Assembly (NCBI GenBank): GCA_037783545.1
Contig: JBBELK010000623.1
Coordinates: 1-64,000 of the forward strand
Length of the DNA: 64,000 nt
Origin: Henricia sp. BOLD:AAB3569
Taxonomy: Eukaryota; Echinodermata; Asteroidea; Spinulosida; Echinasteridae
Direction: 5' to 3'
This document shows positions 691 to 64,000 of this stretch, one piece after another (position 1 is the stretch's first letter; every line of letters starts with the position of its first letter). Below the pieces are notes generated by a model, which was not told the origin of the DNA, did not search any database, and saw only the letters and a list, made by a program, of their open reading frames with translations. The translations under genes and the position numbers were made by a program.

Positions 691-733
691 TTTGGACCAC
701 ACTTTGACCAAATTGCCGAGCCAAACTGCGGTG

Positions 734-39930: not shown

Positions 39931-40076
39931 GTTTGGACCACACTTTGACCAAATTGCCGAGCCAAACTGCGGTGCGTTAACGACAGTCCGAATGACTGAG
40001 CATGCGCACAACTCAGGAGTACCCCAAAGAGGTGTGTACAGACAGCCACGGTTTGCGTGAGAGCAGTCAGGAAGCC
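39931..40076 (+). repeat. 146-bp half monomer 11
   Basis: The breakpoint is the same. It lies only 443 bp after half monomer 10, the minimal spacing of one monomer plus one half. Confidence 0.95.
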
Positions 40077-40969: not shown

Positions 40970-41115
40970 GTTTGGACCACACTTTGACCAAATTGCCGAG
41001 CCAAACTGCGGTGCGTTAACGACAGTCCGAATGACTGAGCATGCGCACAACTCAGGAGTACCCCAAAGAGGTGTGTACAGACAGCCACGGTTTGCGTGAG
41101 AGCAGTCAGGAAGCC
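40970..41115 (+). repeat. 146-bp half monomer 12
   Basis: The breakpoint is the same. It lies 1039 bp after half monomer 11. The preceding monomer has a private ACAACTGCGC change near 40744. Confidence 0.95.
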
Positions 41116-42008
41116 TCAACCCAGTTTTTTCTAAACTTTGAAATTTCTCTGCCATTTCCCGGCGAAAGTCTGTCAATTTTTTATGACAAGTGCGCAATAT
41201 AGAGAGTTTAGGGCATGCAAAATTTGAAGTTCGTCGGAACATTTTTCGACCTCCAAATTTGCCGACGTTTGGACCACACTTTGACCAAATTGCCGAGCCA
41301 AACTGCGGTGCGTTAACGACAGTCCGAATGACTGAGCATGCGCACAACTCAGGAGTACCCCAAAGAGGTGTGTACAGACAGCCACGGTTTGCGTGAGAGC
41401 AGTCAGGAAGCCTCAACCCAGTTTTTTCTAAACTTTGAAATTTCTCTGCCATTTCCCGGCGAAAGTCTGTCAATTTTTTATGACAAGTGCGCAATATAGA
41501 GAGTTTAGGGCATGCAAAATTTGAAGTTCGTCGGAACATTTTTCGACCTCCAAATTTTCCGACGTTTGGACCACACTTTGACCAAATTGCCGATCCAAAC
41601 TGCGGTGCGTTAACGACAGTCCGAATGACTGAGCATGCACACAACTCAGGAGTACCCCCAAAGAGGTGTGTACAGACAGCCACGGTTTGCGTGAGAGCAG
41701 TCAGGAAGCCTCAACCCAGTTTTTATCTAAACTTTGAAATTTCTCTGCCATTTCCCGGCGAAAGTCTGTCAATTTTTTATGACAAGTGCGCAATATAGAG
41801 AGTTTAGGGCATGCAAAATTTGAAGTTCGTCGGAACATTTTTCGACCTCCAAATTTGCCGACGTTTGGACCACACTTTGACCAAATTGCCGAGCCAAACT
41901 GCGGTGCGTTAACGACAGTCCGAATGACTGAGCATGCGCACAACTCAGGAGTACCCCAAAGAGGTGTGTACAGACAGCCACGGTTTGCGTGAGAGCAGTC
42001 AGGAAGCA

Positions 42009-42154
42009 GTTTGGACCACACTTTGACCAAATTGCCGAGCCAAACTGCGGTGCGTTAACGACAGTCCGAATGACTGAGCATGCGCACAACTCAGGAGTAC
42101 CCCAAAGAGGTGTGTACAGACAGCCACGGTTTGCGTGAGAGCAGTCAGGAAGCC
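42009..42154 (+). repeat. 146-bp half monomer 13, the last one
   Basis: The breakpoint is the same. It lies 1039 bp after half monomer 12. No half monomer follows, and the first SINE begins about 1.35 kb downstream, so the two domain markers do not overlap. Confidence 0.95.
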
Positions 42155-43500
42155 TCAACCCAGTTTTTTCTAAACTTTGAAATTTCTCTGCCATTTCCCG
42201 GCGAAAGTCTGTCAATTTTTTATGACAAGTGCGCAATATAGAGAGTTTAGGGCATGCAAAATTTGAAGTTCGTCGGAACATTTTTCGACCTCCAAATTTG
42301 CCGACGTTTGGACCACACTTTGACCAAATTGCCGAGCCAAACTGCGGTGCGTTAACGACAGTCCGAATGACTGAGCATGCGCACAACTCAGGAGTACCCC
42401 AAAGAGGTGTGTACAGACAGCCACGGTTTGCGTGAGAGCAGTCAGGAAGCCTCAACCCAGTTTTTTCTAAACTTTGAAATTTCTCTGCCATTTCCCGGCG
42501 AAAGTCTGTCAATTTTTTATGACAAGTGTGCAATATAGAGAGTTTAGGGCATGCAAAATTTGAAGTTCGTCGGAACATTTTTCGACCTCCAAATTTTCCG
42601 ACGTTTGGACCACACTTTGACCAAATTGCCGAGCCAAACTGCGGTGCGTTAACGACAGTCCGAATGACTGAGCATGCACACAACTCAGGAGTACCCCCAA
42701 AGAGGTGTGTACAGACAGCCACGGTTTGCGTGAGAGCAGTCAGGAAGCCTCAACCCAGTTTTTTTCTAAACTTTGAAATTTCTCTGCCATTTCCCGGCGA
42801 AAGTCTGTCAATTTTTTATGACAAGTGCGCAATATAGAGAGTTTAGGGCATGCAAAATTTGAAGTTCGTCGGAACATTTTTCGACCTCCAAATTTGCCGA
42901 CGTTTGGACCACACTTTGACCAAATTGCCGAGCCAAACTGCGGTGCGTTAACGACAGTCCGAATGACTGAGCATGCGCACAACTCAGGAGTACCCCAAAG
43001 AGGTGTGTACAGACAGCCACGGTTTGCGTGAGAGCAGTCAGGAAGCCTCAACCCAGTTTTTTTCTAAACTTTGAAATTTCTCTGCCATTTCCCGGCGAAA
43101 GTCTGTCAATTTTTTATGACAAGTGCGCAATATAGAGAGTTTAGGGCATGCAAAATTTGAAGTTCGTCGGAACATTTTTCGACCTCCAAATTTGCCGACG
43201 TTTGGACCACACTTTGACCAAATTGCCGAGCCAAACTGCGGTGCGTTAACGACAGTCCGAATGACTGAGCATGCGCACAACTCAGGAGTACCCCAAAGAG
43301 GTGTGTACAGACAGCCACGGTTTGCGTGAGAGCAGTCAGGAAGCCTCAACCCAGTTTTTTCTAAACTTTGAAATTTCTCTGCCATTTCCCGGCGAAAGTC
43401 TGTCAATTTTTTTATGACAAGTGCGCAATATAGAGAGTTTAGGGCATGCAAAATTTGAAGTTCGTCCGAACATTTTTCGACCTCTAAATTTGCCGACGTT

Positions 43501-43792
43501 GTTGTTGTTGTTGTTGTTGTATGTTTTATGGCATCTTCGGCAACTATAGGCCCTTTATGCCATCAACTATACGGTTTTAGCTTTAACTATACTATATTAT
43601 CAACTTGAGATGACGAAGAAGGAGTTGCAGTTTTAGAAGTGGGAGGAAAACCCCCAGAGAAATGCCCCAGGGGAAAACCCACGCGGTCAAGTAGGGACTG
43701 CAAACCCAATCCACATACACGCCCCGGATTCGAACCCGGGACCCCAGAGGTGAAAGGCGAGGAAAGAACCCGTACGCCAACCCGACCGCCCC
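43501..43792 (-). mobile_element. tRNA-derived SINE, copy 1
   Basis: This 292-bp element on the minus strand interrupts a monomer. Its 5' end (at 43792) begins GGGGCGGTCGGG and contains a tRNA-like Pol III promoter: box A TGGCGTACGGG at 43769-43779 and box B GGTTCGAATCC at 43726-43736. A body with GTGGGTTTTCC and CCTCCCAC motifs follows, then an AT-rich part and a (CAA)n tail of about seven units, seen as GTT repeats at 43498-43520. The 13-bp target duplication ATTTGCCGACGTT lies at 43488-43500 and 43793-43805, although the last TT may belong to the tail. It has no coding capacity, as expected of a SINE, and would depend on a partner LINE. The family cannot be named from this sequence; the body motif resembles those in the middle of several metazoan tRNA-SINEs. 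Confidence 0.88.
43726..43779 (-). promoter_or_regulatory. Internal Pol III promoter (boxes A and B) of SINE copy 1
   Basis: Box A (43769-43779) matches the tRNA consensus at ten of eleven positions and starts 13 bases from the element's 5' end. Box B (43726-43736) is a perfect GGTTCGAATCC. The 32-base gap between them is normal for a tRNA promoter. CCCGG before and CCGGG after the box B region could still form a T-arm-like stem. Transcription would run leftward through the SINE and then into the satellite. Confidence 0.8.
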
Positions 43793-44996
43793 ATTTGCCG
43801 ACGTTTGGACCACACTTTGACCAAATTGCCGAGCCAAACTGCGGTGCGTTAACGACAGTCCGAATGACTGAGCATGCGCACAACTCAGGAGTACCCCAAA
43901 GAGGTGTGTACAGACAGCCACGGTTTGCGTGAGAGCAGTCAGGAAGCCTCAACCCAGTTTTTTCTAAACTTTGAAATTTCTCTGCCATTTCCCGGCGAAA
44001 GTCTGTCAATTTTTTATGACAAGTGCGCAATATAGAGAGTTTAGGGCATGCAAAATTTGAAGTTCGTGGGAACATTTTTCGACCTCCAAATTTGCCGACG
44101 TTTGGACCACACTTTGACCAAATTGCCGAGCCAAACTGCGGTGCGTTAACGACAGTCCGAATGACTGAGCATGCGCACAACTCAGGAGTACCCCAAAGAG
44201 GTGTGTACAGACAGCCACGGTTTGCGTGAGAGCAGTCAGGAAGCCTCAACCCAGTTTTTTTCTAAACTTTGAAATTTCTCTGCCATTTCCCGGCGAAAGT
44301 CTGTCAATTTTTTATGACAAGTGCGCAATATAGAGAGTTTAGGGCATGCAAAATTTGAAGTTCGTCGGAACATTTTTCGACCTCCAAATTTGCCGACGTT
44401 TGGACCACACTTTGACCAAATTGCCGAGCCAAACTGCGGTGCGTTAACGACAGTCCGAATGACTGAGCATGCGCACAACTCAGGAGTACCCCAAAGAGGT
44501 GTGTACAGACAGCCACGGTTTGCGTGAGAGCAGTCAGGAAGCCTCAACCCAGTTTTTTTCTAAACTTTGAAATTTCTCTGCCATTTCCCGGCGAAAGTCT
44601 GTCAATTTTTTATGACAAGTGCGCAATATAGAGAGTTTAGGGCATGCAAAATTTGAAGTTCGTCGGAACATTTTTCGACCTCCAAATTTGCCGACGTTTG
44701 GACCACACTTTGACCAAATTGCCGAGCCAAACTGCGGTGCGTTAACGACAGTCCGAATGACTGAGCATGCGCACAACTCAGGAGTACCCCAAAGAGGTGT
44801 GTACAGACAGCCACGGTTTGCGTGAGAGCAGTCAGGAAGCCTCAACCCAGTTTTTTCTAAACTTTGAAATTTCTCTGCCATTTCCCGGCGAAAGTCTGTC
44901 AATTTTTTTATGACAAGTGCGCAATATAGAGAGTTTAGGGCATGCAAAATTTGAAGTTCGTCCGAACATTTTTCGACCTCTAAATTTGCCGACGTT

Positions 44997-45288
44997 GTTG
45001 TTGTTGTTGTTGTTGTATGTTTTATGGCATCTTCGGCAACTATAGGCCCTTTATGCCATCAACTATACGGTTTTAGCTTTAACTATACTATATTATCAAC
45101 TTGAGATGACGAAGAAGGAGTTGCAGTTTTAGAAGTGGGAGGAAAACCCCCAGAGAAATGCCCCAGGGGAAAACCCACGCGGTCAAGTAGGGACTGCAAA
45201 CCCAATCCACATACACGCCCCGGATTCGAACCCGGGACCCCAGAGGTGAAAGGCGAGGAAAGAACCCGTACGCCAACCCGACCGCCCC
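44997..45288 (-). mobile_element. tRNA-derived SINE, copy 2
   Basis: By eye it is identical to copy 1 and lies 1496 bp further on. The target duplication is at 44984-44996 and 45289-45301. The left flank again has GTCCGAACA and CCTCTAAATT, so it was copied together with its flanking monomers. Confidence 0.88.
45222..45275 (-). promoter_or_regulatory. Internal Pol III promoter of SINE copy 2
   Basis: The box A and box B sequences and spacing are identical to those of copy 1. Confidence 0.78.
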
Positions 45289-46492
45289 ATTTGCCGACGT
45301 TTGGACCACACTTTGACCAAATTGCCGAGCCAAACTGCGGTGCGTTAACGACAGTCCGAATGACTGAGCATGCGCACAACTCAGGAGTACCCCAAAGAGG
45401 TGTGTACAGACAGCCACGGTTTGCGTGAGAGCAGTCAGGAAGCCTCAACCCAGTTTTTTCTAAACTTTGAAATTTCTCTGCCATTTCCCGGCGAAAGTCT
45501 GTCAATTTTTTATGACAAGTGCGCAATATAGAGAGTTTAGGGCATGCAAAATTTGAAGTTCGTGGGAACATTTTTCGACCTCCAAATTTGCCGACGTTTG
45601 GACCACACTTTGACCAAATTGCCGAGCCAAACTGCGGTGCGTTAACGACAGTCCGAATGACTGAGCATGCGCACAACTCAGGAGTACCCCAAAGAGGTGT
45701 GTACAGACAGCCACGGTTTGCGTGAGAGCAGTCAGGAAGCCTCAACCCAGTTTTTTTCTAAACTTTGAAATTTCTCTGCCATTTCCCGGCGAAAGTCTGT
45801 CAATTTTTTATGACAAGTGCGCAATATAGAGAGTTTAGGGCATGCAAAATTTGAAGTTCGTCGGAACATTTTTCGACCTCCAAATTTGCCGACGTTTGGA
45901 CCACACTTTGACCAAATTGCCGAGCCAAACTGCGGTGCGTTAACGACAGTCCGAATGACTGAGCATGCGCACAACTCAGGAGTACCCCAAAGAGGTGTGT
46001 ACAGACAGCCACGGTTTGCGTGAGAGCAGTCAGGAAGCCTCAACCCAGTTTTTTCTAAACTTTGAAATTTCTCTGCCATTTCCCGGCGAAAGTCTGTCAA
46101 TTTTTTTATGACAAGTGCGCAATATAGAGAGTTTAGGGCATGCAAAATTTGAAGTTCGTCCGAACATTTTTCGACCTCCAAATTTTCCGACGTTTGGACC
46201 ACACTTTGACCAAATTGCCGAGCCAAACTGCGGTGCGTTAACGACAGTCCGAATGACTGAGCATGCGCACAACTCAGGAGTACCCCAAAGAGGTGTGTAC
46301 AGACAGCCACGGTTTGCGTGAGAGCAGTCAGGAAGCCTCAACCCAGTTTTTTTCTAAACTTTGAAATTTCTCTGCCATTTCCCGGCGAAAGTCTGTCAAT
46401 TTTCTATGACAAGTGCGCAATATAGAGAGTTCAGGGCATGCAAAATTTGAAGTTCGTCGGAACATTTTTCGACCTCTAAATTTGCCGACGTT

Positions 46493-46784
46493 GTTGTTGT
46501 TGTTGTTGTTGTATGTTTTATGGCATCTTCGGCAACTATAGGCCCTTTATGCCATCAACTATACGGTTTTAGCTTTAACTATACTATATTATCAACTTGA
46601 GATGACGAAGAAGGAGTTGCAGTTTTATAAGTGGGAGGAAAACCCCCAGAGAAATGCCCCAGGGGAAAACCCACGCGGTCAAGTAGGGACTGCAAACCCA
46701 ATCCACATACACGCCCCGGATTCGAACCCGGGACCCCAGAGGTGAAAGGCGAGGAAAGAACCCGTACGCCAACCCGACCGCCCC
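46493..46784 (-). mobile_element. tRNA-derived SINE, copy 3
   Basis: It has the same length, site and orientation. One substitution at 46628 (T where the others have G on the plus strand) is the only difference I see among the six copies. The target duplication is at 46480-46492 and 46785-46797. The left flank has TTCTATGAC and GAGTTCAGGG, which it shares with copy 4 but not with copies 1 and 2. Confidence 0.88.
46718..46771 (-). promoter_or_regulatory. Internal Pol III promoter of SINE copy 3
   Basis: The boxes are identical to copy 1. This copy's single substitution (46628) lies outside the promoter. Confidence 0.78.
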
Positions 46785-49700
46785 ATTTGCCGACGTTTGG
46801 ACCACACTTTGACCAAATTGCCGAGCCAAACTGCGGTGCGTTAACGACAGTCCGAATGACTGAGCATGCGCACAACTCAGGAGTACCCCAAAGAGGTGTG
46901 TACAGACAGCCACGGTTTGCGTGAGAGCAGTCAGGAAGCCTCAACCCAGTTTTTTCTAAACTTTGAAATTTCTCTGCCATTTCCCGGCGAAAGTCTGTCA
47001 ATTTTTTATGACAAGTGCGCAATATAGAGAGTTTAGGGCATGCAAAATTTGAAGTTCGTCGGAACATTTTTCGACCTCCAAATTTGCCGACGTTTGGACC
47101 ACACTTTGACCAAATTGCCGAGCCAAACTGCGGTGCGTTAACGACAGTCCGAATGACTGAGCATGCGCACAACTCAGGAGTACCCCAAAGAGGTGTGTAC
47201 AGACAGCCACGGTTTGCGTGAGAGCAGTCAGGAAGCCTCAACCCAGTTTTTTCTAAACTTTGAAATTTCTCTGCCATTTCCCGGCGAAAGTCTGTCAATT
47301 TGTTATGACAAGTGCGCAATATAGAGAGTTTAGGGCATGCAAAATTTGAAGTTCGTCGGAACATTTTTCGACCTCCAAATTTGCCGACGTTTGGACCACA
47401 CTTTGACCAAATTGCCGAGCCAAACTGCGGTGCGTTAACGACAGTCCGAATGACTGAGCATGCGCACAACTCAGGAGTACCCCAAAGAGGTGTGTACAGA
47501 CAGCCACGGTTTGCGTGAGAGCAGTCAGGAAGCCTCAACCCAGTTTTTTCTAAACTTTGAAATTTCTCTGCCATTTCCCGGCGAAAGTCTGTCAATTTTT
47601 TATGACAAGTGCGCAATATAGAGAGTTTAGGGCATGCAAAATTTGAAGTTCGTCGGAACATTTTTCGACCTCCAAATTTGCCGACGTTTGGACCACACTT
47701 TGACCAAATTGCCGAGCCAAACTGCGGTGCGTTAACGACAGTCCGAATGACTGAGCATGCGCACAACTCAGGAGTACCCCAAAGAGGTGTGTACAGACAG
47801 CCACGGTTTGCGTGAGAGCAGTCAGGAAGCCTCAACCCAGTTTTTTCTAAACTTTGAAATTTCTCTGCCATTTCCCGGCGAAAGTCTGTCAATTTGTTAT
47901 GACAAGTGCGCAATATAGAGAGTTTAGGGCATGCAAAATTTGAAGTTCGTCGGAACATTTTTCGACCTCCAAATTTGCCGACGTTTGGACCACACTTTGA
48001 CCAAATTGCCGAGCCAAACTGCGGTGCGTTAACGACAGTCCGAATGACTGAGCATGCGCACAACTCAGGAGTACCCCAAAGAGGTGTGTACAGACAGCCA
48101 CGGTTTGCGTGAGAGCAGTCAGGAAGCCTCAACCCAGTTTTTTTCTAAACTTTGAAATTTCTCTGCCATTTCCCGGCGAAAGTCTGTCAATTTTTTATGA
48201 CAAGTGCGCAATATAGAGAGTTTAGGGCATGCAAAATTTGAAGTTCGTCGGAACATTTTTCGACCTCCAAATTTGCCGACGTTTGGACCACACTTTGACC
48301 AAATTGCCGAGCCAAACTGCGGTGCGTTAACGACAGTCCGAATGACTGAGCATGCGCACAACTCAGGAGTACCCCAAAGAGGTGTGTACAGACAGCCACG
48401 GTTTGCGTGAGAGCAGTCAGGAAGCCTCAACCCAGTTTTTTCTAAACTTTGAAATTTCTCTGCCATTTCCCGGCGAAAGTCTGTCAATTTTTTATGACAA
48501 GTGCGCAATATAGAGAGTTTAGGGCATGCAAAATTTGAAGTTCGTCGGAACATTTTTCGACCTCCAAATTTGCCGACGTTTGGACCACACTTTGACCAAA
48601 TTGCCGAGCCAAACTGCGGTGCGTTAACGACAGTCCGAATGACTGAGCATGCGCACAACTCAGGAGTACCCCAAAGAGGTGTGTACAGACAGCCACGGTT
48701 TGCGTGAGAGCAGTCAGGAAGCCTCAACCCAGTTTTTTCTAAACTTTGAAATTTCTCTGCCATTTCCCGGCGAAAGTCTGTCAATTTGTTATGACAAGTG
48801 CGCAATATAGAGAGTTTAGGGCATGCAAAATTTGAAGTTCGTCGGAACATTTTTCGACCTCCAAATTTGCCGACGTTTGGACCACACTTTGACCAAATTG
48901 CCGAGCCAAACTGCGGTGCGTTAACGACAGTCCGAATGACTGAGCATGCGCACAACTCAGGAGTACCCCAAAGAGGTGTGTACAGACAGCCACGGTTTGC
49001 GTGAGAGCAGTCAGGAAGCCTCAACCCAGTTTTTTCTAAACTTTGAAATTTCTCTGCCATTTCCCGGCGAAAGTCTGTCAATTTTTTATGACAAGTGCGC
49101 AATATAGAGAGTTTAGGGCATGCAAAATTTGAAGTTCGTCGGAACATTTTTCGACCTCCAAATTTGCCGACGTTTGGACCACACTTTGACCAAATTGCCG
49201 AGCCAAACTGCGGTGCGTTAACGACAGTCCGAATGACTGAGCATGCGCACAACTCAGGAGTACCCCAAAGAGGTGTGTACAGACAGCCACGGTTTGCGTG
49301 AGAGCAGTCAGGAAGCCTCAACCCAGTTTTTTCTAAACTTTGAAATTTCTCTGCCATTTCCCGGCGAAAGTCTGTCAATTTTTTATGACAAGTGCGCAAT
49401 ATAGAGAGTTTAGGGCATGCAAAATTTGAAGTTCGTCGGAACATTTTTCGACCTCCAAATTTGCCGACGTTTGGACCACACTTTGACCAAATTGCCGAGC
49501 CAAACTGCGGTGCGTTAACGACAGTCCGAATGACTGAGCATGCGCACAACTCAGGAGTACCCCAAAGAGGTGTGTACAGACAGCCACGGTTTGCGTGAGA
49601 GCAGTCAGGAAGCCTCAACCCAGTTTTTTCTAAACTTTGAAATTTCTCTGCCATTTCCCGGCGAAAGTCTGTCAATTTGTTATGACAAGTGCGCAATATA

Positions 49701-51256
49701 GAGAGTTTAGGGCATGCAAAATTTGAAGTTCGTCGGAACATTTTTCGACCTCCAAATTTGCCGACGTTTGGACCACACTTTGACCAAATTGCCGAGCCAA
49801 ACTGCGGTGCGTTAACGACAGTCCGAATGACTGAGCATGCGCACAACTCAGGAGTACCCCAAAGAGGTGTGTACAGACAGCCACGGTTTGCGTGAGAGCA
49901 GTCAGGAAGCCTCAACCCAGTTTTTTCTAAACTTTGAAATTTCTCTGCCATTTCCCGGCGAAAGTCTGTCAATTTTTTATGACAAGTGCGCAATATAGAG
50001 AGTTTAGGGCATGCAAAATTTGAAGTTCGTCGGAACATTTTTCGACCTCCAAATTTGCCGACGTTTGGACCACACTTTGACCAAATTGCCGAGCCAAACT
50101 GCGGTGCGTTAACGACAGTCCGAATGACTGAGCATGCGCACAACTCAGGAGTACCCCAAAGAGGTGTGTACAGACAGCCACGGTTTGCGTGAGAGCAGTC
50201 AGGAAGCCTCAACCCAGTTTTTTCTAAACTTTGAAATTTCTCTGCCATTTCCCAGCGAAAGTCTGTCAATTTGTTATGACAAGTGCGCAATATAGAGAGT
50301 TTAGGGCATGCAAAATTTGAAGTTCGTCGGAACATTTTTCGACCTCCAAATTTGCCGACGTTTGGACCACACTTTGACCAAATTGCCGAGCCAAACTGCG
50401 GTGCGTTAACGACAGTCCGAATGACTGAGCATGCGCACAACTCAGGAGTACCCCAAAGAGGTGTGTACAGACAGCCACGGTTTGCGTGAGAGCAGTCAGG
50501 AAGCCTCAACCCAGTTTTTTTCTAAACTTTGAAATTTCTCTGCCATTTCCCGGCGAAAGTCTGTGAATTTTTTATGACAAGTGCGCAATATAGAGAGTTT
50601 AGGGCATGCAAAATTTGAAGTTCGTCGGAACATTTTTCGACCTCCAAATTTGCCGACGTTTGGACCACACTTTGACCAAATTGCCGAGCCAAACTGCGGT
50701 GCGTTAACGACAGTCCGAATGACTGAGCATGCGCACAACTCAGGAGTACCCCAAAGAGGTGTGTATAGACAGCCACGGTTTGCGTGAGAGCAGTCAGGAA
50801 GCCTCAACCCAGTTTTTTCTAAACTTTGAAATTTCTCTGCCATTTCCCGGCGAAAGTCTGTCAATTTGTTTATGACAAGTGCGCAATATAGAGAGTTTAG
50901 GGCATGCAAAATTTGAAGTTCGTCCGAACATTTTTCGACCTCCAAATTTTCCGACGTTTGGACCACACTTTGACCAAATTGCCGAGCCAAACTGCGGTGC
51001 GTTAACGACAGTCCGAATGACTGAGCATGCGCACAACTCAGGAGTACCCCAAAGAGGTGTGTACAGACAGCCAGGGTTTGCGTGAGAGCAGTCAGGAAGC
51101 CTCAACCCAGTTTTTTTCTAAACTTTGAAATTTCTCTGCCATTTCCCGGCGAAAGTCTGTCAATTTTCTATGACAAGTGCGCAATATAGAGAGTTCAGGG
51201 CATGCAAAATTTGAAGTTCGTCGGAACATTTTTCGACCTCTAAATTTGCCGACGTT

Positions 51257-51548
51257 GTTGTTGTTGTTGTTGTTGTATGTTTTATGGCATCTTCGGCAAC
51301 TATAGGCCCTTTATGCCATCAACTATACGGTTTTAGCTTTAACTATACTATATTATCAACTTGAGATGACGAAGAAGGAGTTGCAGTTTTAGAAGTGGGA
51401 GGAAAACCCCCAGAGAAATGCCCCAGGGGAAAACCCACGCGGTCAAGTAGGGACTGCAAACCCAATCCACATACACGCCCCGGATTCGAACCCGGGACCC
51501 CAGAGGTGAAAGGCGAGGAAAGAACCCGTACGCCAACCCGACCGCCCC
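51257..51548 (-). mobile_element. tRNA-derived SINE, copy 4
   Basis: It is identical to copy 1. The target duplication is at 51244-51256 and 51549-51561. The left flank carries the same TTCTATGAC, GAGTTCAGGG and CCTCTAAATT set as copy 3, 4764 bp upstream. It opens the first 2386-bp unit. Confidence 0.88.
51482..51535 (-). promoter_or_regulatory. Internal Pol III promoter of SINE copy 4
   Basis: The box A and box B sequences and spacing are identical to those of copy 1. Confidence 0.78.
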
Positions 51549-53642
51549 ATTTGCCGACGTTTGGACCACACTTTGACCAAATTGCCGAGCCAAACTGCGG
51601 TGCGTTAACGACAGTCCGAATGACTGAGCATGCGCACAACTCAGGAGTACCCCAAAGAGGTGTGTACAGACAGCCACGGTTTGCGTGAGAGCAGTCAGGA
51701 AGCCTCAACCCAGTTTTTTTCTAAACTTTGAAATTTCTCTGCCATTTCCCGGCGAAAGTCTGTCAATTTTTTTATGACAAGTGCGCAATATAGAGAGTTT
51801 AGGGCATGCAAAATTTGAAGTTCGTCGGAACATTTTTCGACCTCCAAATTTGCCGACGTTTGGACCACACTTTGACCAAATTGCCGAGCCAAACTGCGGT
51901 GCGTTAACGACAGTCCGAATGACTGAGCATGCGCACAACTCAGGAGTACCCCAAAGAGGTGTGTACAGACAGCCACGGTTTGCGTGAGAGCAGTCAGGAA
52001 GCCTCAACCCAGTTTTTTCTAAACTTTGAAATTTCTCTGCCATTTCCCGGCGAAAGTCTGTCAATTTTTTATGACAAGTGTGCAATATAGAGAGTTTAGG
52101 GCATGCAAAATTTGAAGTTCGTCGGAACATTTTTCGACCTCCAAATTTGCCGACGTTTGGACCACACTTTGACCAAATTGCCGAGCCAAACTGCGGTGCG
52201 TTAACGACAGTCCGAATGACTGAGCATGCGCACAACTCAGGAGTACCCCAAAGAGGTGTGTACAGACAGCCACGGTTTGCGTGAGAGCAGTCAGGAAGCC
52301 TCAACCCAGTTTTTTCTAAACTTTGAAATTTCTCTGCCATTTCCCGGCGAAAGTCTGTCAATTTTTTATGACAAGTGCGCAATATAGAGAGTTTAGGGCA
52401 TGCAAAATTTGAAGTTCGTCGGAACATTTTTCGACCTCCAAATTTGCCGACGTTTGGACCACACTTTGACCAAATTGCCGAGCCAAACTGCGGTGCGTTA
52501 ACGACAGTCCGAATGACTGAGCATGCGCACAACTCAGGAGTACCCCAAAGAGGTGTGTACAGACAGCCACGGTTTGCGTGAGAGCAGTCAGGAAGCCTCA
52601 ACCCAGTTTTTTCTAAACTTTGAAATTTCTCTGCCATTTCCCGGCGAAAGTCTGTCAATTTGTTATGACAAGTGCGCAATATAGAGAGTTTAGGGCATGC
52701 AAAATTTGAAGTTCGTCGGAACATTTTTCGACCTCCAAATTTGCCGACGTTTGGACCACACTTTGACCAAATTGCCGAGCCAAACTGCGGTGCGTTAACG
52801 ACAGTCCGAATGACTGAGCATGCGCACAACTCAGGAGTACCCCAAAGAGGTGTGTACAGACAGCCACGGTTTGCGTGAGAGCAGTCAGGAAGCCTCAACC
52901 CAGTTTTTTCTTAACTTTGAAATTTCTCTGCCATTTCCCGGCGAAAGTCTGTCAATTTTTTATGACAAGTGCGCAATATAGAGAGTTTAGGGCATGCAAA
53001 ATTTGAAGTTCGTCGGAACATTTTTCGACCTCCAAATTTGCCGACGTTTGGACCACACTTTGACCAAATTGCCGAGCCAAACTGCGGTGCGTTAACGACA
53101 GCCCGAATGACTGAGCATGCGCACAACTCAGGAGTACCCCAAAGAGGTGTGTACAGACAGCCACGGTTTGCGTGAGAGCAGTCAGGAAGCCTCAACCCAG
53201 TTTTTTCTAAACTTTGAAATTTCTCTGCCATTTCCCGGCGAAAGTCTGTCAATTTTTTATGACAAGTGCGCAATATAGAGAGTTTAGGGCATGCAAAATT
53301 TGAAGTTCGTCGGAACATTTTTCGACCTCCAAATTTGCCGACGTTTGGACCACACTTTGACCAAATTGCCGAGCCAAACTGCAGTGCGTTAACGACAGCC
53401 CGAATGACTGAGCATGCGCACAACTCAGGAGTACCCCAAAGAGGTGTGTACAGACAGCCACGGTTTGCGTGAGAGCAGTCAGGAAGCCTCAACCCAGTTT
53501 TTTCTAAACTTTGAAATTTCTCTGCCATTTCCCGGCGAAAGTCTGTCAATTTGTTATGACAAGTGCGCAATATAGAGAGTTTAGGGCATGCAAAATTTGA
53601 AGTTCGTCGGAACATTTTTCGACCTCCAAATTTGCCGACGTT

Positions 53643-53934
53643 GTTGTTGTTGTTGTTGTTGTATGTTTTATGGCATCTTCGGCAACTATAGGCCCTTTAT
53701 GCCATCAACTATACGGTTTTAGCTTTAACTATACTATATTATCAACTTGAGATGACGAAGAAGGAGTTGCAGTTTTAGAAGTGGGAGGAAAACCCCCAGA
53801 GAAATGCCCCAGGGGAAAACCCACGCGGTCAAGTAGGGACTGCAAACCCAATCCACATACACGCCCCGGATTCGAACCCGGGACCCCAGAGGTGAAAGGC
53901 GAGGAAAGAACCCGTACGCCAACCCGACCGCCCC
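53643..53934 (-). mobile_element. tRNA-derived SINE, copy 5
   Basis: It is identical to copy 1. The target duplication is at 53630-53642 and 53935-53947. The left flank has the common CCTCCAAATT form and GTTATGAC, unlike copies 1-4, which implies an exchange or conversion event next to the element. Confidence 0.88.
53868..53921 (-). promoter_or_regulatory. Internal Pol III promoter of SINE copy 5
   Basis: The box A and box B sequences and spacing are identical to those of copy 1. Confidence 0.78.
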
Positions 53935-55935
53935 ATTTGCCGACGTTTGGACCACACTTTGACCAAATTGCCGAGCCAAACTGCGGTGCGTTAACGACAG
54001 TCCGAATGACTGAGCATGCGCACAACTCAGGAGTACCCCAAAGAGGTGTGTACAGACAGCCACGGTTTGCGTGAGAGCAGTCAGGAAGCCTCAACCCAGT
54101 TTTTTTCTAAACTTTGAAATTTCTCTGCCATTTCCCGGCGAAAGTCTGTCAATTTTTTTATGACAAGTGCGCAATATAGAGAGTTTAGGGCATGCAAAAT
54201 TTGAAGTTCGTCGGAACATTTTTCGACCTCCAAATTTGCCGACGTTTGGACCACACTTTGACCAAATTGCCGAGCCAAACTGCGGTGCGTTAACGACAGT
54301 CCGAATGACTGAGCATGCGCACAACTCAGGAGTACCCCAAAGAGGTGTGTACAGACAGCCACGGTTTGCGTGAGAGCAGTCAGGAAGCCTCAACCCAGTT
54401 TTTTCTAAACTTTGAAATTTCTCTGCCATTTCCCGGCGAAAGTCTGTCAATTTTTTATGACAAGTGCGCAATATAGAGAGTTTAGGGCATGCAAAATTTG
54501 AAGTTCGTCGGAACATTTTTCGACCTCCAAATTTGCCGACGTTTGGACCACACTTTGACCAAATTGCCGAGCCAAACTGCGGTGCGTTAACGACAGTCCG
54601 AATGACTGAGCATGCGCACAACTCAGGAGTACCCCAAAGAGGTGTGTACAGACAGCCACGGTTTGCGTGAGAGCAGTCAGGAAGCCTCAACCCAGTTTTT
54701 TCTAAACTTTGAAATTTCTCTGCCATTTCCCGGCGAAAGTCTGTCAATTTTTTATGACAAGTGCGCAATATAGAGAGTTTAGGGCATGCAAAATTTGAAG
54801 TTCGTCGGAACATTTTTCGACCTCCAAATTTGCCGACGTTTGGACCACACTTTGACCAAATTGCCGAGCCAAACTGCGGTGCGTTAACGACAGTCCGAAT
54901 GACTGAGCATGCGCACAACTCAGGAGTACCCCAAAGAGGTGTGTACAGACAGCCACGGTTTGCGTGAGAGCAGTCAGGAAGCCTCAACCCAGTTTTTTCT
55001 AAACTTTGAAATTTCTCTGCCATTTCCCGGCGAAAGTCTGTCAATTTGTTATGACAAGTGCGCAATATAGAGAGTTTAGGGCATGCAAAATTTGAAGTTC
55101 GTCGGAACATTTTTCGACCTCCAAATTTGCCGACGTTTGGACCACACTTTGACCAAATTGCCGAGCCAAACTGCGGTGCGTTAACGACAGTCCGAATGAC
55201 TAAGCATGCGCACAACTCAGGAGTACCCCAAAGAGGTGTGTACAGACAGCCACGGTTTGCGTGAGAGCAGTCAGGAAGCCTCAACCCAGTTTTTTCTTAA
55301 CTTTGAAATTTCTCTGCCATTTCCCGGCGAAAGTCTGTCAATTTTTTATGACAAGTGCGCAATATAGAGAGTTTAGGGCATGCAAAATTTGAAGTTCGTC
55401 GGAACATTTTTCGACCTCCAAATTTGCCGACGTTTGGACCACACTTTGACCAAATTGCCGAGCCAAACTGCGGTGCGTTAACGACAGCCCGAATGACTGA
55501 GCATGCGCACAACTCAGGAGTACCCCAAAGAGGTGTGTACAGACAGCCACGGTTTGCGTGAGAGCAGTCAGGAAGCCTCAACCCAGTTTTTTCTAAACTT
55601 TGAAATTTCTCTGCCATTTCCCGGCGAAAGTCTGTCAATTTTTTATGACAAGTGCGCAATATAGAGAGTTTAGGGCATGCAAAATTTGAAGTTCGTCGGA
55701 ACATTTTTCGACCTCCAAATTTGCCGACGTTTGGACCACACTTTGACCAAATTGCCGAGCCAAACTGCAGTGCGTTAACGACAGCCCGAATGACTGAGCA
55801 TGCGCACAACTCAGGAGTACCCCAAAGAGGTGTGTACAGACAGCCACGGTTTGCGTGAGAGCAGTCAGGAAGCCTCAACCCAGTTTTTTCTAAACTTTGA
55901 AATTTCTCTGCCATTTCCCGGCGAAAGTCTGTCAA

Positions 55936-57732
55936 TTTTTTATGACAAGTGCGCAATATAGAGAGTTTAGGGCATGCAAAATTTGAAGTTCGTCGGAACA
56001 TTTTTCGACCTCCAAATTTGCCGACGTTTGGACCACACTTTGACCAAATTGCCGAGCCAAACTGCGGTGCGTTAACGACAGTCCGAATGACTGAGCATGC
56101 GCACAACTCAGGAGTACCCCCAAAGAGGTGTGTACAGACAGCCACGGTTTGCGTGAGAGCAGTCAGGAAGCCTCAACCCAGTTTTTTTCTAAACTTTGAA
56201 ATTTCTCTGCCATTTCCCGGCGAAAGTCTGTCAATTTTTTATGACAAGTGCGCAATATAGAGAGTTTAGGGCATGCAAAATTTGAAGTTCGTGGGAACAT
56301 CTTTCGACCTCCAAATTTGCCGACGTTTGGACCACACTTTGACCAAATTGCCGAGCCAAACTGCGGTGCGTTAACGACAGTCCGAATGACTGAGCATGCG
56401 CACAACTCAGGAGTACCCCAAAGAGGTGTGTACAGACAGCCACGGTTTGCGTGAGAGCAGTCAGGAAGCCTCAACCCAGTTTTTACTAAACTTTGAAATT
56501 TCTCTGCCATTTCCCGGCGAAAGTCTGTCAATTTTTTATGACAAGTGCGCAATATAGAGAGTTTAGGGCATGCAAAATTTGAAGTTCGTCGGAACATTTT
56601 TCGACCTCCAAATTTGCCGACGTTTGGACCACACTTTGACCAAATTGCCGAGCCAAACTGCGGTGCGTTAACGACAGTCCGAATGACTGAGCATGCGCAC
56701 AACTCAGGAGTACCCCAAAGAGGTGTGTACAGACAGCCACGGTTTGCGTGAGAGCAGTCAGGAAGCCTCAACCCAGTTTTTTCTAAACTTTGAAATTTCT
56801 CTGCCATTTCCCGGCGAAAGTCTGTCAATTTTTTATGACAAGTGCGCAATATAGAGAGTTTAGGGCATGCAAAATTTGAAGTTCGTCGGAACATTTTTCG
56901 ACCTCCAAATTTGCCGACGTTTGGACCACACTTTGACCAAATTGCCGAGCCAAACTGCGGTGCGTTAACGACAGTCCGAATGACTGAGCATGCGCACAAC
57001 TCAGGAGTACCCCCAAAGAGGTGTGTACAGACAGCCACGGTTTGCGTGAGAGCAGTCAGGAAGCCTCAACCCAGTTTTTTTCTAAACTTTGAAATTTCTC
57101 TGCCATTTCCCGGCGAAAGTCTGTCAATTTTTTATGACAAGTGCGCAATATAGAGAGTTTAGGGCATGCAAAATTTGAAGTTCGTGGGAACATCTTTCGA
57201 CCTCCAAATTTGCCGACGTTTGGACCACACTTTGACCAAATTGCCGAGCCAAACTGCGGTGCGTTAACGACAGTCCGAATGACTGAGCATGCGCACAACT
57301 CAGGAGTACCCCAAAGAGGTGTGTACAGACAGCCACGGTTTGCGTGAGAGCAGTCAGGAAGCCTCAACCCAGTTTTTACTAAACTTTGAAATTTCTCTGC
57401 CATTTCCCGGCGAAAGTCTGTCAATTTTTTATGACAAGTGCGCAATATAGAGAGTTTAGGGCATGCAAAATTTGAAGTTCGTCGGAACATTTTTCGACCT
57501 CCAAATTTGCCGACGTTTGGACCACACTTTGACCAAATTGCCGAGCCAAACTGCGGTGCGTTAACGACAGTCCGAATGACTGAGCATGCGCACAACTCAG
57601 GAGTACCCCAAAGAGGTGTGTACAGACAGCCACGGTTTGCGTGAGAGCAGTCAGGAAGCCTCAACCCAGTTTTTTCTAAACTTTGAAATTTCTGTGCCAT
57701 TTCCCGGCGAAAGTCTGTCAATTTTTTATGAC
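55936..57732. repeat. 893-bp trimer duplicated in tandem
   Basis: The rare CATCTTTCG (near 56299 and 57192) and TTTTTACTAAAC (near 56480 and 57373) recur 893 bp apart, as does a monomer with five cytosines (ACCCCCAAAG). The unit is three monomers with two extra bases, from the extra cytosine and an extra thymine. Confidence 0.75.
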
Positions 57733-59510
57733 AAGTGCGCAATATAGAGAGTTTAGGGCATGCAAAATTTGAAGTTCGTCGGAACATTTTTCGACCTCCA
57801 AATTTGCCGACGTTTGGACCACACTTTGACCAAATTGCCGAGCCAAACTGCGGTGCGTTAACGACAGTCCGAATGACTGAGCATGCGCACAACTCAGGAG
57901 TACCCCAAAGAGGTGTGTACAGACAGCCACGGTTTGCGTGAGAGCAGTCAGGAAGCCTCAACCCAGTTTTTTCTAAACTTTGAAATTTCTCTGCCATTTC
58001 CCGGCGAAAGTCTGTCAATTTTTTATGACAAGTGCGCAATATAGAGAGTTTAGGGCATGCAAAATTTGAAGTTCGTCGGAAAATTTTTCGACCTCCAAAT
58101 TTGCCGACGTTTGGACCACACTTTGACCAAATTGCCGAGCCAAACTGCGGTGCGTTAACGACAGTCCGAATGACTGAGCATGCGCACAACTCAGGAGTAC
58201 CCCAAAGAGGTGTGTACAGACAGCCACGGTTTGCGTGAGAGCAGTCAGGAAGCCTCAACCCAGTTTTTTCTAAACTTTGAAATTTCTCTGCCATTTCCAG
58301 GCGAAAGTCTGTCAATTTTTTATGACAAGTGCGCAATATAGAGAGTTTAGGGCATGCAAAATTTGAAGTTCGTGGGAACATTTTTCGACCTCCAAATTTG
58401 CCGACGTTTGGACCACACTTTGACCAAATTGCCGAGCCAAACTGCGGTGCGTTAACGACAGTCCGAATGACTGAGCATGCGCACAACTCAGGAGTACCCC
58501 AAAGAGGTGTGTACAGACAGCCACGGTTTGCGTGAGAGCAGTCAGGAAGCCTCAACCCAGTTTTTTCTAAACTTTGAAATTTCTGTGCCATTTCCCGGCG
58601 AAAGTCTGTCATTTTTTTATGACAAGTGCGCAATATAGAGAGTTTAGGGCATGCAAAATTTGAAGTTCGTCGGAACATTTTTCGACCTCCAAATTTGCCG
58701 ACGTTTGGACCACACTTTGACCAAATTGCCGAGCCAAACTGCGGTGCGTTAACGACAGTCCGAATGACTGAGCATGCGCACAACTCAGGAGTACCCCAAA
58801 GAGGTGTGTACAGACAGCCACGGTTTGCGTGAGAGCAGTCAGGAAGCCTCAACCCAGTTTTTTCTAAACTTTGAAATTTCTCTGCCATTTCCCGGCGAAA
58901 GTCTGTCAATTTTTTATGACAAGTGCGCAATATAGAGAGTTTAGGGCATGCAAAATTTGAAGTTCGTCGGAAAATTTTTCGACCTCCAAATTTGCCGATG
59001 TTTGGACCACACTTTGACCAAATTGCCGAGCCAAACTGCGGTGCGTTAACGACAGTCCGAATGACTGAGCATGCGCACAACTCAGGAGTACCCCAAAGAG
59101 GTGTGTACAGACAGCCACGGTTTGCGTGAGAGCAGTCAGGAAGCCTCAACCCAGTTTTTTCTAAACTTTGAAATTTCTCTGCCATTTCCCGGCGAAAGTC
59201 TGTCAATTTTTTATGACAAGTGCGCAATATAGAGAGTTTAGGGCATGCAAAATTTGAAGTTCGTGGGAACATTTTTCGACCTCCAAATTTGCCGACGTTT
59301 GGACCACACTTTGACCAAATTGCCGAGCCAAACTGCGGTGCGTTAACGACAGTCCGAATGACTGAGCATGCGCACAACTCAGGAGTACCTCAAAGAGGTG
59401 TGTACAGACAGCCACGGTTTGCGTGAGAGCAGTCAGGAAGCCTCAACCCAGTTTTTTCTAAACTTTGAAATTTCTCTGCCATTTCCCGGCGAAAGTCTGT
59501 CATTTTTTTA
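57727..59510. repeat. 891-bp trimer duplicated in tandem
   Basis: Monomers marked by GGAAAATTTTT (near 58079 and 58970) and by GTGGGAACA (near 58373 and 59264) recur exactly 891 bp apart in the same order. One copy has a private CCGATG change near 58998. This is a further local trimer HOR. Confidence 0.75.
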
Positions 59511-62481
59511 TGACAAGTGCGCAATATAGAGAGTTTAGGGCATGCAAAATTTGAAGTTCGTCGGAACATTTTTCGACCTCCAAATTTGCCGACGTTTGGA
59601 CCACACTTTGACCAAATTGCCGAGCCAAACTGCGGTGCGTTAACGACAGTCCGAATGACTGAGCATGCGCACAACTCAGGAGTACCCCAAAGAGGTGTGT
59701 ACAGACAGCCACGGTTTGCGTGAGAGCAGTCAGGAAGCCTCAACCCAGTTTTTTCTAAACTTTGAAATTTCTCTGCCATTTCCCGGCGAAAGTCTGTCAA
59801 TTTTTTATGACAAGTGCGCAATATAGAGAGTTTAGGGCATGCAAAATTTGAAGTTCGTCGGAACATTTTTCGACCTCCAAATTTGCCGACGTTTGGACCA
59901 CACTTTGACCAAATTGCCGAGCCAAACTGCGGTGCGTTAACGACAGTCCGAATGACTGAGCATGCGCACAACTCAGGAGTACCCCAAAGAGGTGTGTACA
60001 GACAGCCACGGTTTGCGTGAGAGCAGTCAGGAAGCCTCAACCCAGTTTTTTCTAAACTTTGAAATTTCTCTGCCATTTCCCGGCGAAAGTCTGTCAATTT
60101 TTTATGACAAGTGCGCAATATAGAGAGTTTAGGGCATGCAAAATTTGAAGTTCGTGGGAACATTTTTCGACCTCCAAATTTGCCGACGTTTGGACCACAC
60201 TTTGACCAAATTGCCGAGCCAAACTGCGGTGCGTTAACGACAGTCCGAATGACTGAGCATGCGCACAACTCAGGAGTACACCAAAGAGGTGTGTACAGAC
60301 AGCCACGGTTTGCGTGAGAGCAGTCAGGAAGCCTCAACCCAGTTTTTTCTAAACTTTGAAATTTCTCTGCCATTTCCCGGCGAAAGTCTGTCAATTTTTT
60401 ATGACAAGTGCGCAATATAGAGAGTTTAGGGCATGCAAAATTTGAAGTTCGTGGGAACATTTTTCGACCTCCAAATTTGCCGACGTTTGGACCACACTTT
60501 GACCAAATTGCCGAGCCAAACTGCGGTGCGTTAACGACAGTCCGAATGACTGAGCATGCGCACAACTCAGGAGTACCCCAAAGAGGTGTGTACAGACAGC
60601 CACGGTTTGCGTGAGAGCAGTCAGGAAGCCTCAACCCAGTTTTTTCTAAACTTTGAAATTTCTCTGCCATTTCCCGGCGAAAGTCTGTCAATTTGTTATG
60701 ACAAGTGCGCAATATAGAGAGTTTAGGGCATGCAAAATTTGAAGTTCGTCGGAACATTTTTCGACCTCCAAATTTGCCGACGTTTGGACCACACTTTGAC
60801 CAAATTGCCGAGCCAAACTGCGGTGCGTTAACGACAGTCCGAATGACTGAGCATGCGCACAACTCAGGAGTACCCCAAAGAGGTGTGTACAGACAGCCAC
60901 GGTTTGCGTGAGAGCAGTCAGGAAGCCTCAACCCAGTTTTTTCTAAACTTTAAAATTTCTCTGCCATTTCCCGGCGAAAGTCTGTCAATTTTTTATGACA
61001 AGTGCGCAATATAGAGAGTTTAGGGCATGCAAAATTTGAAGTTCGTCGGAACATTTTTCGACCTCTAAATTTGCCGACGTTTGGACCACACTTTGACCAA
61101 ATTGCCGAGCCAAACTGCGGTGCGTTAACGACAGTCCGAATGACTGAGCATGCGCACAACTCAGGAGTACCCCAAAGAGGTGTGTACAGACAGCCACGGT
61201 TTGCGTGAGAGCAGTCAGGAAGCCTCAACCCAGTTTTTTCTAAACTTTGAAATTTCTCTGCCATTTCCCGGCGAAAGTCTGTCAATTTTTTATGACAAGT
61301 GCGCAATATAGAGAGTTTAGGGCATGCAAAATTTGAAGTTCGTCGGAACATTTTTCGACCTCCAAATTTGCCGACGTTTGGACCACACTTTGACCAAATT
61401 GCCGAGCCAAACTGCGGTGCGTTAACGACAGTCCGAATGACTGAGCATGCGCACAACTCAGGAGTACCCCAAAGATGTGTGTACAGACAGCCACGGTTTG
61501 CGTGAGAGCAGTCAGGAAGCCTCAACCCAGTTTTTTCTAAACTTTGAAATTTCTCTGCCATTTCCCGGCGAAAGTCTGTCAATTTTTTATGACAAGTGCG
61601 CAATATAGAGAGTTTAGGGCATGCACAATTTGAAGTTCGTCGGAACATTTTTCGACCTCCAAATTTGCCGACGTTTGGACCACACTTTGACCAAATTGCC
61701 GAGCCAAACTGCGGTGCGTTAACGACAGTCCGAATGACTGAGCATGCGCACAACTCAGGAGTACCCCAAAGAGGTGTGTACAGACAGCCACGGTTTGCGT
61801 GAGAGCAGTCAGGAAGCCTCAACCCAGTTTTTTTCTAAACTTTGAAATTTCTCTGCCATTTCCCGGCGAAAGTCTGTCATTTTTTTATGACAAGTGCGCA
61901 ATATAGAGAGTTTAGGGCATGCAAAATTTGAAGTTCGTCGGAACATTTTTCGACCTCCAAATTTGCCGACGTTTGGACCACACTTTGACCAAATTGCCGA
62001 GCCAAACTGCGGTGCGTTAACGACAGTCCGAATGACTGAGCATGCGCACAACTCAGGAGTACCCCAAAGAGGTGTGTACAGACAGCCACGGTTTGCGTGA
62101 GAGCAGTCAGGAAGCCTCAACCCAGTTTTTTCTAAACTTTGAAATTTCTCTGCCATTTCCCGGCGAAAGTCTGTCAATTTTGTATGACAAGTGCGCAATA
62201 TAGAGAGTTTAGGGCATGCAAAATTTGAAGTTCGTGGGAACATTTTTCGACCTCCAAATTTGCCGACGTTTGGACCACACTTTGACCAAATTGCCGAGCC
62301 AAACTGCGGTGCGTTAACGACAGTCCGAATGACTGAGCATGCGCACAACTCAGGAGTACCCCAAAGAGGTGTGTACAGACAGCCACGGTTTGCGTGAGAG
62401 CAGTCAGGAAGCCTCAACCCAGTTTTTTTCTAAACTTTGAAATTTATCTGCCATTTCCCGGCGAAAGTCTGTCAATTTTTT

Positions 62482-62653
62482 ATGACAAGTGCGCAATATA
62501 GAGAGTTTAGGGCATGCAAAATTTGAAGTTCGTCGGAACATTTTTCGACCTCCAAATTTGCCGACGTTTGGACCAGTCAGGAAGCCTCAACCCAGTTTTT
62601 TCTAAACTTTGAAATTTCTCTGCCATTTCCCGGCGAAAGTCTGTCAATTTTTT
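62482..62653 (+). repeat. 172-bp monomer with a 125-bp internal deletion
   Basis: The monomer runs to GTTTGGACCA at 62575 and resumes at GTCAGGAAG from 62576, removing 125 bp. The bases CA are shared by both ends, a 2-bp microhomology. It removes exactly the palindrome-bearing part that the 146-bp half monomers keep. It is seen once only. Confidence 0.9.
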
Positions 62654-63334
62654 ATGACAAGTGCGCAATATAGAGAGTTTAGGGCATGCAAAATTTGAAG
62701 TTCGTTGGAACATTTTTCGACCTCCAAATTTGCCGACGTTTGGACCACACTTTGACCAAATTGCCGAGCCAAACTGCGGTGCGTTAACGACAGTCCGAAT
62801 GACTGAGCATGCGCACAACTCAGGAGTACCCCAAAGAGGTGTGTACAGACAGCCACGGTTTGCGTGAGAGCAGTCAGGAAGCCTCAACCCAGTTTTTTCT
62901 AAACTTTGAAATTTCTCTGCCATTTCCCGGCGAAAGTCTGTCAATTTTTTATGACAAGTGCGCAATATAGAGAGTTTAGGGCATGCAAAATTTGAAGTTC
63001 GTCGGAACATTTTTCGACCTCCAAATTTGCCGACGTTTGGACCACACTTTGACCAAATTGCCGAGCCAAACTGCGGTGCGTTAACGACAGTCCGAATGAC
63101 TGAGCATGCGCACAACTCAGGAGTACCCCAAAGAGGTGTGTACAGACAGCCACGGTTTGCGTGAGAGCAGTCAGGAAGCCTTAACCCAGTTTTTTCTAAA
63201 CTTTGAAATTTCTCTGCCATTTCCCGGCGAAAGTCTGTCAATTTTTTATGACAAGTGCGCAATATAGAGAGTTTAGGGCATGCAACATTTGAAGTTCGTC
63301 GGAACATTTTTCGACCTCCAAATTTGCCGACGTT

Positions 63335-63626
63335 GTTGTTGTTGTTGTTGTTGTATGTTTTATGGCATCTTCGGCAACTATAGGCCCTTTATGCCATCAA
63401 CTATACGGTTTTAGCTTTAACTATACTATATTATCAACTTGAGATGACGAAGAAGGAGTTGCAGTTTTAGAAGTGGGAGGAAAACCCCCAGAGAAATGCC
63501 CCAGGGGAAAACCCACGCGGTCAAGTAGGGACTGCAAACCCAATCCACATACACGCCCCGGATTCGAACCCGGGACCCCAGAGGTGAAAGGCGAGGAAAG
63601 AACCCGTACGCCAACCCGACCGCCCC
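63335..63626 (-). mobile_element. tRNA-derived SINE, copy 6
   Basis: It is identical to copy 1. The target duplication is at 63322-63334 and 63627-63639. The left flank has CCTCCAAATT and a private GCAACATTTG. It is separated from copy 5 by 9.7 kb of SINE-free monomers. Confidence 0.88.
63560..63613 (-). promoter_or_regulatory. Internal Pol III promoter of SINE copy 6
   Basis: The box A and box B sequences and spacing are identical to those of copy 1. Confidence 0.78.
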
Positions 63627-64000
63627 ATTTGCCGACGTTTGGACCACACTTTGACCAAATTGCCGAGCCAAACTGCGGTGCGTTAACGACAGTCCGAATG
63701 ACTGAGCATGCGCACAACTCAGGAGTACCCCAAAGAGGTGTGTACAGACAGCCACGGTTTGCGTGAGAGCAGTCAGGAAGCCTCAACCCAGTTTTTTCTA
63801 AACTTTGAAATTTCTCTGCCATTTCCCGGCGAAAGTCTGTCAATTTTTTGTGACAAGTGCGCAATATAGAGAGTTTAGGGCATGCAAAATTTGAAGTTCG
63901 TCGGAACATTTTTCGACCTCCAAATTTGCCGACGTTTGGACCACACTTTGACCAAATTGCCGAGCCAAACTGCGGTGCGTTAACGACAGTCCGAATGACT

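Follow-up and report, generated by a model that had tools for sequence, protein, structure and literature searches.

The SINE copies that interrupt a 297-bp satellite of Henricia sp. very probably descend from one SINE insertion into one monomer, which would then have been multiplied by the satellite's own unequal exchange. An earlier note on this DNA had read the copies as one insertion amplified by the satellite array, and that reading was supported by a single insertion site, by private changes in the SINE and by shared flanking haplotypes.

The window, the whole 64-kb stretch that was analysed (1..64000, + strand; from a genome of 740.7 Mb), was found to be a 297-bp satellite array throughout by TRF, BLAST of the monomer and a monomer variant table. 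Monomer boundaries were set by BLAST and gave 203 monomer starts, on which the variant table was based; plain monomers differed by 2.4 substitutions per 297 bp. The array was broken only by six SINEs and by partial monomer duplications or deletions. With the satellite, as written, taken as the plus strand, all six SINEs were on the minus strand; they were inserted after monomer position 98, and were 292 bp long and bordered on both sides by ATTTGCCGACGTT; the 13-bp target duplication corresponds to monomer positions 86-98. Copy 1 (43501..43792) was placed between target duplications at 43488-43500 and 43793-43805. Copy 2 (44997..45288) was identical to it and lay within the second 1496-bp unit of a tandem duplication, and copy 3 (46493..46784) differed from it by one substitution, at position 136 of the + strand insert. 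Copies 4 (51257..51548), 5 (53643..53934, within the second 2386-bp unit of a tandem duplication) and 6 (63335..63626) were identical to the first two. The earlier note's description of a common orientation, length, 13-bp duplication and insertion point was thus accurate for 6/6 window copies, as was its count of five identical SINEs and one with a substitution, and its range of 43488-63639 was delimited by the outer target duplications. Words of 12 bases from the SINE were found nowhere else in the window on either strand.

The SINE belongs to a dispersed, apparently tRNA-like family. Exact 17-base heads lacking the preceding T of the satellite were found 1399 times (backwards control, 0). 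The length of 292 bp is within the size used to define a SINE (a short dispersed repeat, about 100-600 bp), and the 3' tail is a simple (AAC)n. A putative internal pol III promoter was recognised from sequence matches to the A and B box consensus (A box 10/11 at SINE position 14; B box 11/11 at position 57). No tRNA was detected in the SINE by ARAGORN at the default threshold or as an Rfam tRNA match; Rfam matches were discarded as evidence, none being at the gathering score. Exact patterns, two from the SINE and one from the satellite in viral contigs and one from the SINE in prokaryote genome contigs, gave no match, as expected of these collections, and the SINE was assigned to no named family.

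Thirty dispersed loci were fetched by taking loci with an exact head in order of contig number from the lowest, rather than at random. All 30 matched the SINE, four of them only partially (L034, L037, L045, L050). Duplication-like repeats were present at 23/30 loci, two being doubtful (L034, L052), and no target-duplication-like repeat was found at 7/30. These target duplications differed from one another, barring three loci in one common larger repeat. Several independent retrotranspositions, each into a favoured 13-bp target of the satellite monomer, would account for the one site seen throughout, and the target ends in GTT, which is able to pair with the AAC tail. This explanation was rejected because the target duplications of the dispersed copies were unrelated to the satellite site: a target preference shared by dispersed copies, which the earlier note had named as contrary evidence, was seen at 0/23 loci with repeats. 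With 12 GTT/AAC sites per monomer (both strands counted), the chance of six independent GTT/AAC insertions sharing one site is, by arithmetic, about (1/12)^5 = 4e-6; without any site rule it would be far below 4e-6. We regard independent insertion as scarcely credible.

The satellite copies were drawn from an identity-ranked search (40 of 483 candidates scored) and from a list of private-signature matches. Sixty-one SINE anchors were located in satellite loci; eight were too close to the locus end and were left out, and the 53 complete copies that remained were joined by 20/20 further copies from the private-signature list. For two of the 53, one of them C838:34465, where the upstream monomer was irregular, the tail-side satellite flank was read separately. 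All 73 copies with readable flanks (the window's six included) shared the same monomer site and orientation across 12 satellite contigs, although these contigs may include alternative haplotypes of one array, so that copy numbers and sharing between contigs are possibly inflated. The SINE-satellite junction read CGGCAAATGGGGCGGTCGGG and the empty, SINE-free site AATTTGCCGACGTTTGGACCAC. Mapping of insertion point, orientation and flanking variants, as the earlier note had proposed, thus gave one site and one orientation on the 12 contigs, and the other monomer positions or orientations by which its reading might have failed were absent among the 73.

The satellite SINEs departed from the dispersed family in two changes, namely an extra A at SINE position 246 and C for T at 270. 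The exact strings with these changes were present in 6/6 window copies, numbered 53 and 54 across satellite loci L009-L028 and occurred in 0/30 dispersed loci, so that the comparison with SINEs outside the satellite, also proposed earlier, set the two groups apart. In a column tally, A at 246 was recorded for three dispersed loci and C at 270 for two, but these cases (L031, L037, L051; L043, L045) were explained by misaligned bases where sequence was deleted or truncated, or by a substitution, and neither private string was present. A 34-base pattern spanning both changes gave 174 exact matches in the assembly (backwards control, 0); the 100 private-signature matches listed were all within 11 contigs, and the copies fetched from each had satellite flanks. 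Among the 53 satellite copies, the mean difference between SINE bodies was 0.48 in 274 bases, and the GTT tract had seven units in 44 and another length in 9. Not all copies were full length, bodies being 12-13 bp shorter in 5/20 of the further copies. The two private changes, and a tail that is for the most part constant, argue against independent insertion as well. Together with the shared flanking haplotypes, the two changes show descent of the satellite SINEs from one insertion.

Repeated identical blocks could also be generated by collapsed or copied reads. Assembly is difficult over long stretches of near-identical satellite, the contigs with SINEs were 71-473 kb long, and 20/20 short samples from four of them were satellite. 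Such an assembly artefact is nevertheless very improbable, since on many contigs the units could be told apart by tail length and by phased single-base variants, and separate contigs concurred on the insertion site.

The flanks of the SINEs record how the insertion was multiplied. A 1496-bp SINE-bearing higher-order unit was tandemly repeated at 42695..46054 (+ strand), with an exact match of 1864 bp at lag 1496. A 2386-bp SINE-bearing unit was duplicated in tandem at 51242..54466 (+ strand), with 839 bp of exact match at lag 2386, beyond which the same order of variant monomers continued to 55930. The variant 65G>C was found in 4/203 monomers, those of copies 1 and 2 and those directly preceding copies 3 and 4; from this distribution, copies 1 and 2 are read as a hybrid monomer, in which the left part of the preceding monomer would be followed by 83T and the SINE. 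Tandem duplication and a hybrid monomer in the flanking variants are as expected of unequal exchange, and the shared haplotypes and duplicated units again argue against independent insertion.

Left and right flanks of the SINE monomers were mosaics. Copy 4 combined the left-flank haplotype of copy 3 with the right-flank haplotype of copy 5, and copy 5 carried 9T>G, which is unpredicted by simple duplication from copy 4. The left flank of copy 6, a 243C>T monomer and then 50A>C ([243C>T][50A>C SINE]), was found again downstream within C623 and on C1068, and the order [90G>T][10C 38C SINE ...250+T] was found again on C969 and C1068. Left haplotypes 10C38C/83T and 50C each occurred both with and without 250+T at the right, and copies 5 and 6 had few flank variants in common with copies 1-4, differing on the left side. 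These features would also be produced if one insertion had spread mainly by gene conversion into empty monomers at constant monomer number. As the main route this is unlikely, because whole multi-monomer SINE units were tandemly repeated, which requires a gain of monomers. Spread by excised circles, amplified by rolling circle and reinserted in arrays, would fit the local runs of SINE-bearing units and their presence on 12 satellite contigs; it is improbable, as neighbouring SINEs were spaced from 1196 to 9692 bp apart on C623 (between 43501 and 83311, read without gaps), unlike a run of a single unit.

Under multiplication by unequal exchange, the SINE is a structural marker moved by exchange among several local higher-order units, because only 6/203 monomers of the window carried it and their flanks were mosaic. 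Within the window, the SINE-bearing units formed short local runs and no homogeneous array. The SINE-containing satellite subfamily of the earlier note therefore stands as an amplified single insertion but not as one clean subfamily.

Variants free of transposons were multiplied in the same array (146-bp duplication, 13 times; 65-bp duplication, 3 times; 2-bp deletion, twice). A common internal duplication of 146 bp was carried by 13 monomers of the window (443 or 444 bp long), twelve of them in 28855..42210 (+ strand; monomer variant table) and the 13th at 8316; this duplication is a non-transposon structural variant multiplied as the SINE was. At 10842..14308 (+ strand; TRF, variant table and lag matches), one 65-bp internal duplication recurred in three monomers, which belonged to a 1552-bp higher-order unit. 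Repeats of monomer type exceeded all 500 shuffles at lags 4, 5 and 9, a weak signal; lag 3 equalled the largest shuffle and the remaining lags were not above it.

In the proposed course of events, a single copy of the dispersed tRNA-like SINE would have inserted once in one 297-bp monomer. Target-primed reverse transcription is the probable route: the satellite strand, once nicked, would end in ...ACGTT, and the AAC repeats at the end of the SINE would pair with its last three bases. Unequal exchange (out-of-register crossing over between near-identical monomers, with tandem duplication of segments) would then have multiplied the SINE monomer together with those next to it, and the SINE flanks would have been reshuffled as monomers exchanged sequence. 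We infer both this insertion chemistry and the role of crossing over, in preference to conversion or circle reinsertion, as main driver; part of what was seen could also have come from gene conversion tracts or reinserted circles.

Another tandem array (C62) carried a SINE of its own, located at a single site in 11/11 copies. Its site differed from that described above, a further point against independent insertion into a preferred target. It is conceivable, if rather unlikely, that the SINE is more than a neutral passenger and that, through its putative pol III promoter and its GTT tract within an array otherwise uniform, it favours exchange or is itself retained; SINE capture followed by tandem amplification would then be recurrent in this genome, with C62 as a second independent case. 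An insertion marked privately in one monomer makes satellite exchange directly readable (units duplicated, places of crossover, spread between contigs), and natural tags of this kind can serve to measure satellite turnover.

The copying of one transposon insertion by recombination of a repeat array has precedents in other genomes. In bovine 1.711b, a satellite unit and an inserted element were amplified together, as here, the element and the satellite both being different. In rye, pSc200/pSc250 arrays have adjacent transposable elements, and tandem repeats and transposons are described as co-expanding by recombination (PMC4857426). This recombination-driven co-expansion is as in Henricia, but the rye elements flank the arrays and, in the account cited, no single insertion is traced by its target duplication. 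A full-length SINE, RUDI, likewise splits a monomer of the DTHS3 satellite in the clam Donax trunculus; unlike here, the published description concerns one fragment without a target duplication and describes no amplification (PMC5139131). Satellite 1 of Xenopus laevis and Hy/Pol III of Hydromantes also hold SINE-type sequence inside a tandem array, but are presented as derived from it, the SINE-like sequence being the origin of the unit, whereas here it is a late passenger in few monomers (PMC9659126, PMC6947457). The Henricia case is like that of human K111 and K222, endogenous retroviruses in the CER:D22Z3 and pCER:D22Z8 centromeric repeats. K111 is reported to lie within a centromeric repeat, to have a single target duplication (GAATTC) and to be present in many centromeric regions, and the expansion of K222 is attributed to pericentromere recombination, with K222/K111 recombinants that have exchanged flanks (PMC4425911). 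According to that source, the human element is a provirus followed by PCR and sequencing, whereas here the insert is a 292-bp SINE and the higher-order units were read at sequence level.

The entire window consisted of satellite with a 297-bp unit (203 monomer starts; TRF, BLAST of the monomer and the monomer variant table). Six 292-bp SINE inserts (copies 1 – 6, all on the minus strand) started at 43501, 44997, 46493, 51257, 53643 and 63335, and ATTTGCCGACGTT bordered every one of them on both sides. Five of the six were identical and the third differed by one substitution. The earlier note had described six 292-bp SINEs at one satellite base with one 13-bp target duplication, of which five looked identical and one carried a single substitution, and this description was borne out. 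In minus-strand orientation, the insert matched the consensus at 11/11 for the B box and at 10/11 for an A-box-like motif, and ended in AAC repeats. ARAGORN called no tRNA in the insert at its default threshold and none of the Rfam matches attained the gathering score; the element is therefore most safely called a 'tRNA-like SINE'.

Outside the satellite, the SINE forms a genuine dispersed family in this genome (740.7 Mb, 2104 contigs). Its head, preceded by any base except the satellite's T, had 1399 exact genome matches (backwards control, 0); dispersed heads, among the matches listed, were all on contigs C1 – C62. The first 30 such loci were fetched, and the SINE was present in 30/30 (longest match 82 – 99% identity), with partial matches at four: L034 (39 bases), L037, L045 and L050. 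No satellite sequence was matched in these loci (3017 bases each, E up to 1e-3). Target-duplication-like repeats were found at 23/30 (two doubtful, L034 and L052) and not at the other 7, and the satellite insertion site was not among the 23. Loci L033, L044 and L048 (C2 and C6) had one common site because the SINE there lies within a larger dispersed repeat; when the SINE was masked, pairs of these loci aligned along one flank over 886 – 1199 bp at 96 – 98%.

The SINEs in the satellite go back to a single insertion. They differed from dispersed copies by an extra A at SINE position 246 and by C replacing T at 270. Exact strings for these private changes occurred in 6/6 window copies, 53 and 54 times in the satellite loci L009 – L028, and in 0/30 dispersed loci. 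The usual family string at 246 was found in 23/30 dispersed loci and those at 270, in two forms, in 18/30 and 5/30; all were absent from the window and L009 – L028. A column tally of the dispersed loci gave A at 246 in three and C at 270 in two, and on inspection these five were rejected as private changes, each reflecting misalignment beside a deletion or truncation, or else a substitution. Across the genome, a 34-base pattern combining the two changes matched 174 times (control, 0); in contig order, the first 100 of these places start at C265.

Complete satellite copies lay at one site in 53/53 cases, with identical 274-bp bodies in 44/53, a GTT tract of 7 units in 44/53 and a mean pairwise difference of 0.48 bases. 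At C838:34465 the upstream monomer was irregular and the site was confirmed by separate reading of the tail-side satellite flank; at C1068:168043 a later insert splits the SINE tail, and the tail-side satellite flank, read separately, gave the same site. Further copies from five contigs (two new) were at this site in 20/20, five having bodies 12 – 13 bp shorter. With the private changes in satellite copies and in 0/30 dispersed loci, and 73/73 copies with readable flanks at one site, the earlier proposal of one insertion amplified by the satellite was upheld. Satellite copies were sampled by an identity-favouring search (40/483 candidates scored) and through the private signature; such sampling could have overlooked a SINE in the satellite that belongs to a different subfamily and lies at a different site. 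Both haplotypes may be represented among the contigs. Four consecutive satellite copies on C331 (L089 – L092) had bodies 13 bp shorter than most, apparently a derived form multiplied locally. One of the 73 copies had its GTT tail split by an insert of ~2.9 kb (L025:3154-6036, on C1068) with 17-bp terminal inverted repeats, CAGTCAGTCCGCAGCGC.

Monomer variants, typed with the SINE removed in script, were phased. Monomers of copies 1 and 2 carried 5+T, 65G>C and 83C>T, those of copies 3 and 4 carried 10C, 38C and 83T, that of copy 5 carried 9T>G and that of copy 6 50A>C. Within the window, 5+T (15 monomers), 9T>G (24) and 250+T (36) lay within or adjoining stretches of T, where mutation may be unusually frequent or sequencing errors may be favoured. 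The 83C>T change was present in 4/6 SINE monomers versus 2/197 others (Fisher p 3e-6, monomers being non-independent), and probably arose or was acquired after SINE insertion, since none of the other listed satellite copies carried it in the left flank. The 4/203 monomers with 65G>C were those of copies 1 and 2 and the immediate predecessors of copies 3 and 4. This pattern is most simply explained by a one-monomer unequal exchange falling in the interval from 65 to 83, which would fuse the preceding monomer to a SINE monomer. Tandem units measured 1496 bp (copies 1 – 2) and 2386 bp (copies 4 – 5). On C969 and C1068 the order [90G>T][10C 38C SINE, 250+T] occurred in copies lacking 83C>T. The order [243C>T][50A>C SINE] recurred within the window's contig and was present on C1068. 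Left and right flank haplotypes were reassorted among satellite copies, and from such sequence patterns we infer crossing over in the satellite.

Internal duplications of 146 bp (13 monomers) and 65 bp (3) and a 2-bp deletion (2), each with a single breakpoint, were repeated in the window; the array therefore multiplies other structural variants too. Higher-order units on the 443-bp monomer with the 146-bp duplication occupied 28855 – 42210 (lags 1039, 1336, 1779 and 2971). In contrast to the remaining window, positions 1 – 8315 held 28 monomers of 296 – 297 bp without a structural variant. A second tandem array (C62:849355-912646; L059, L080 – L088) had its own SINE at a different site, with the head-side flank CACATAAATGT common to 11/11 copies and the private change at 246 absent from 10 fetched loci. 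In the completely read part of this array the unit measured 5716 bp; subrepeats were of 225, 438 and 663 bp.

According to PMC4425911, K111 lies in a centromeric repeat with a GAATTC duplication, K222 expansion is attributed to pericentromere recombination, and K222/K111 recombinants have exchanged flanks; the satellite SINE here follows the same logic. Satellites from SINE-like elements are tabulated in PMC9659126 and PMC6947457, and one SINE within a satellite monomer is reported in PMC5139131. Given these precedents, SINE-satellite amplification is a process of an already known kind.
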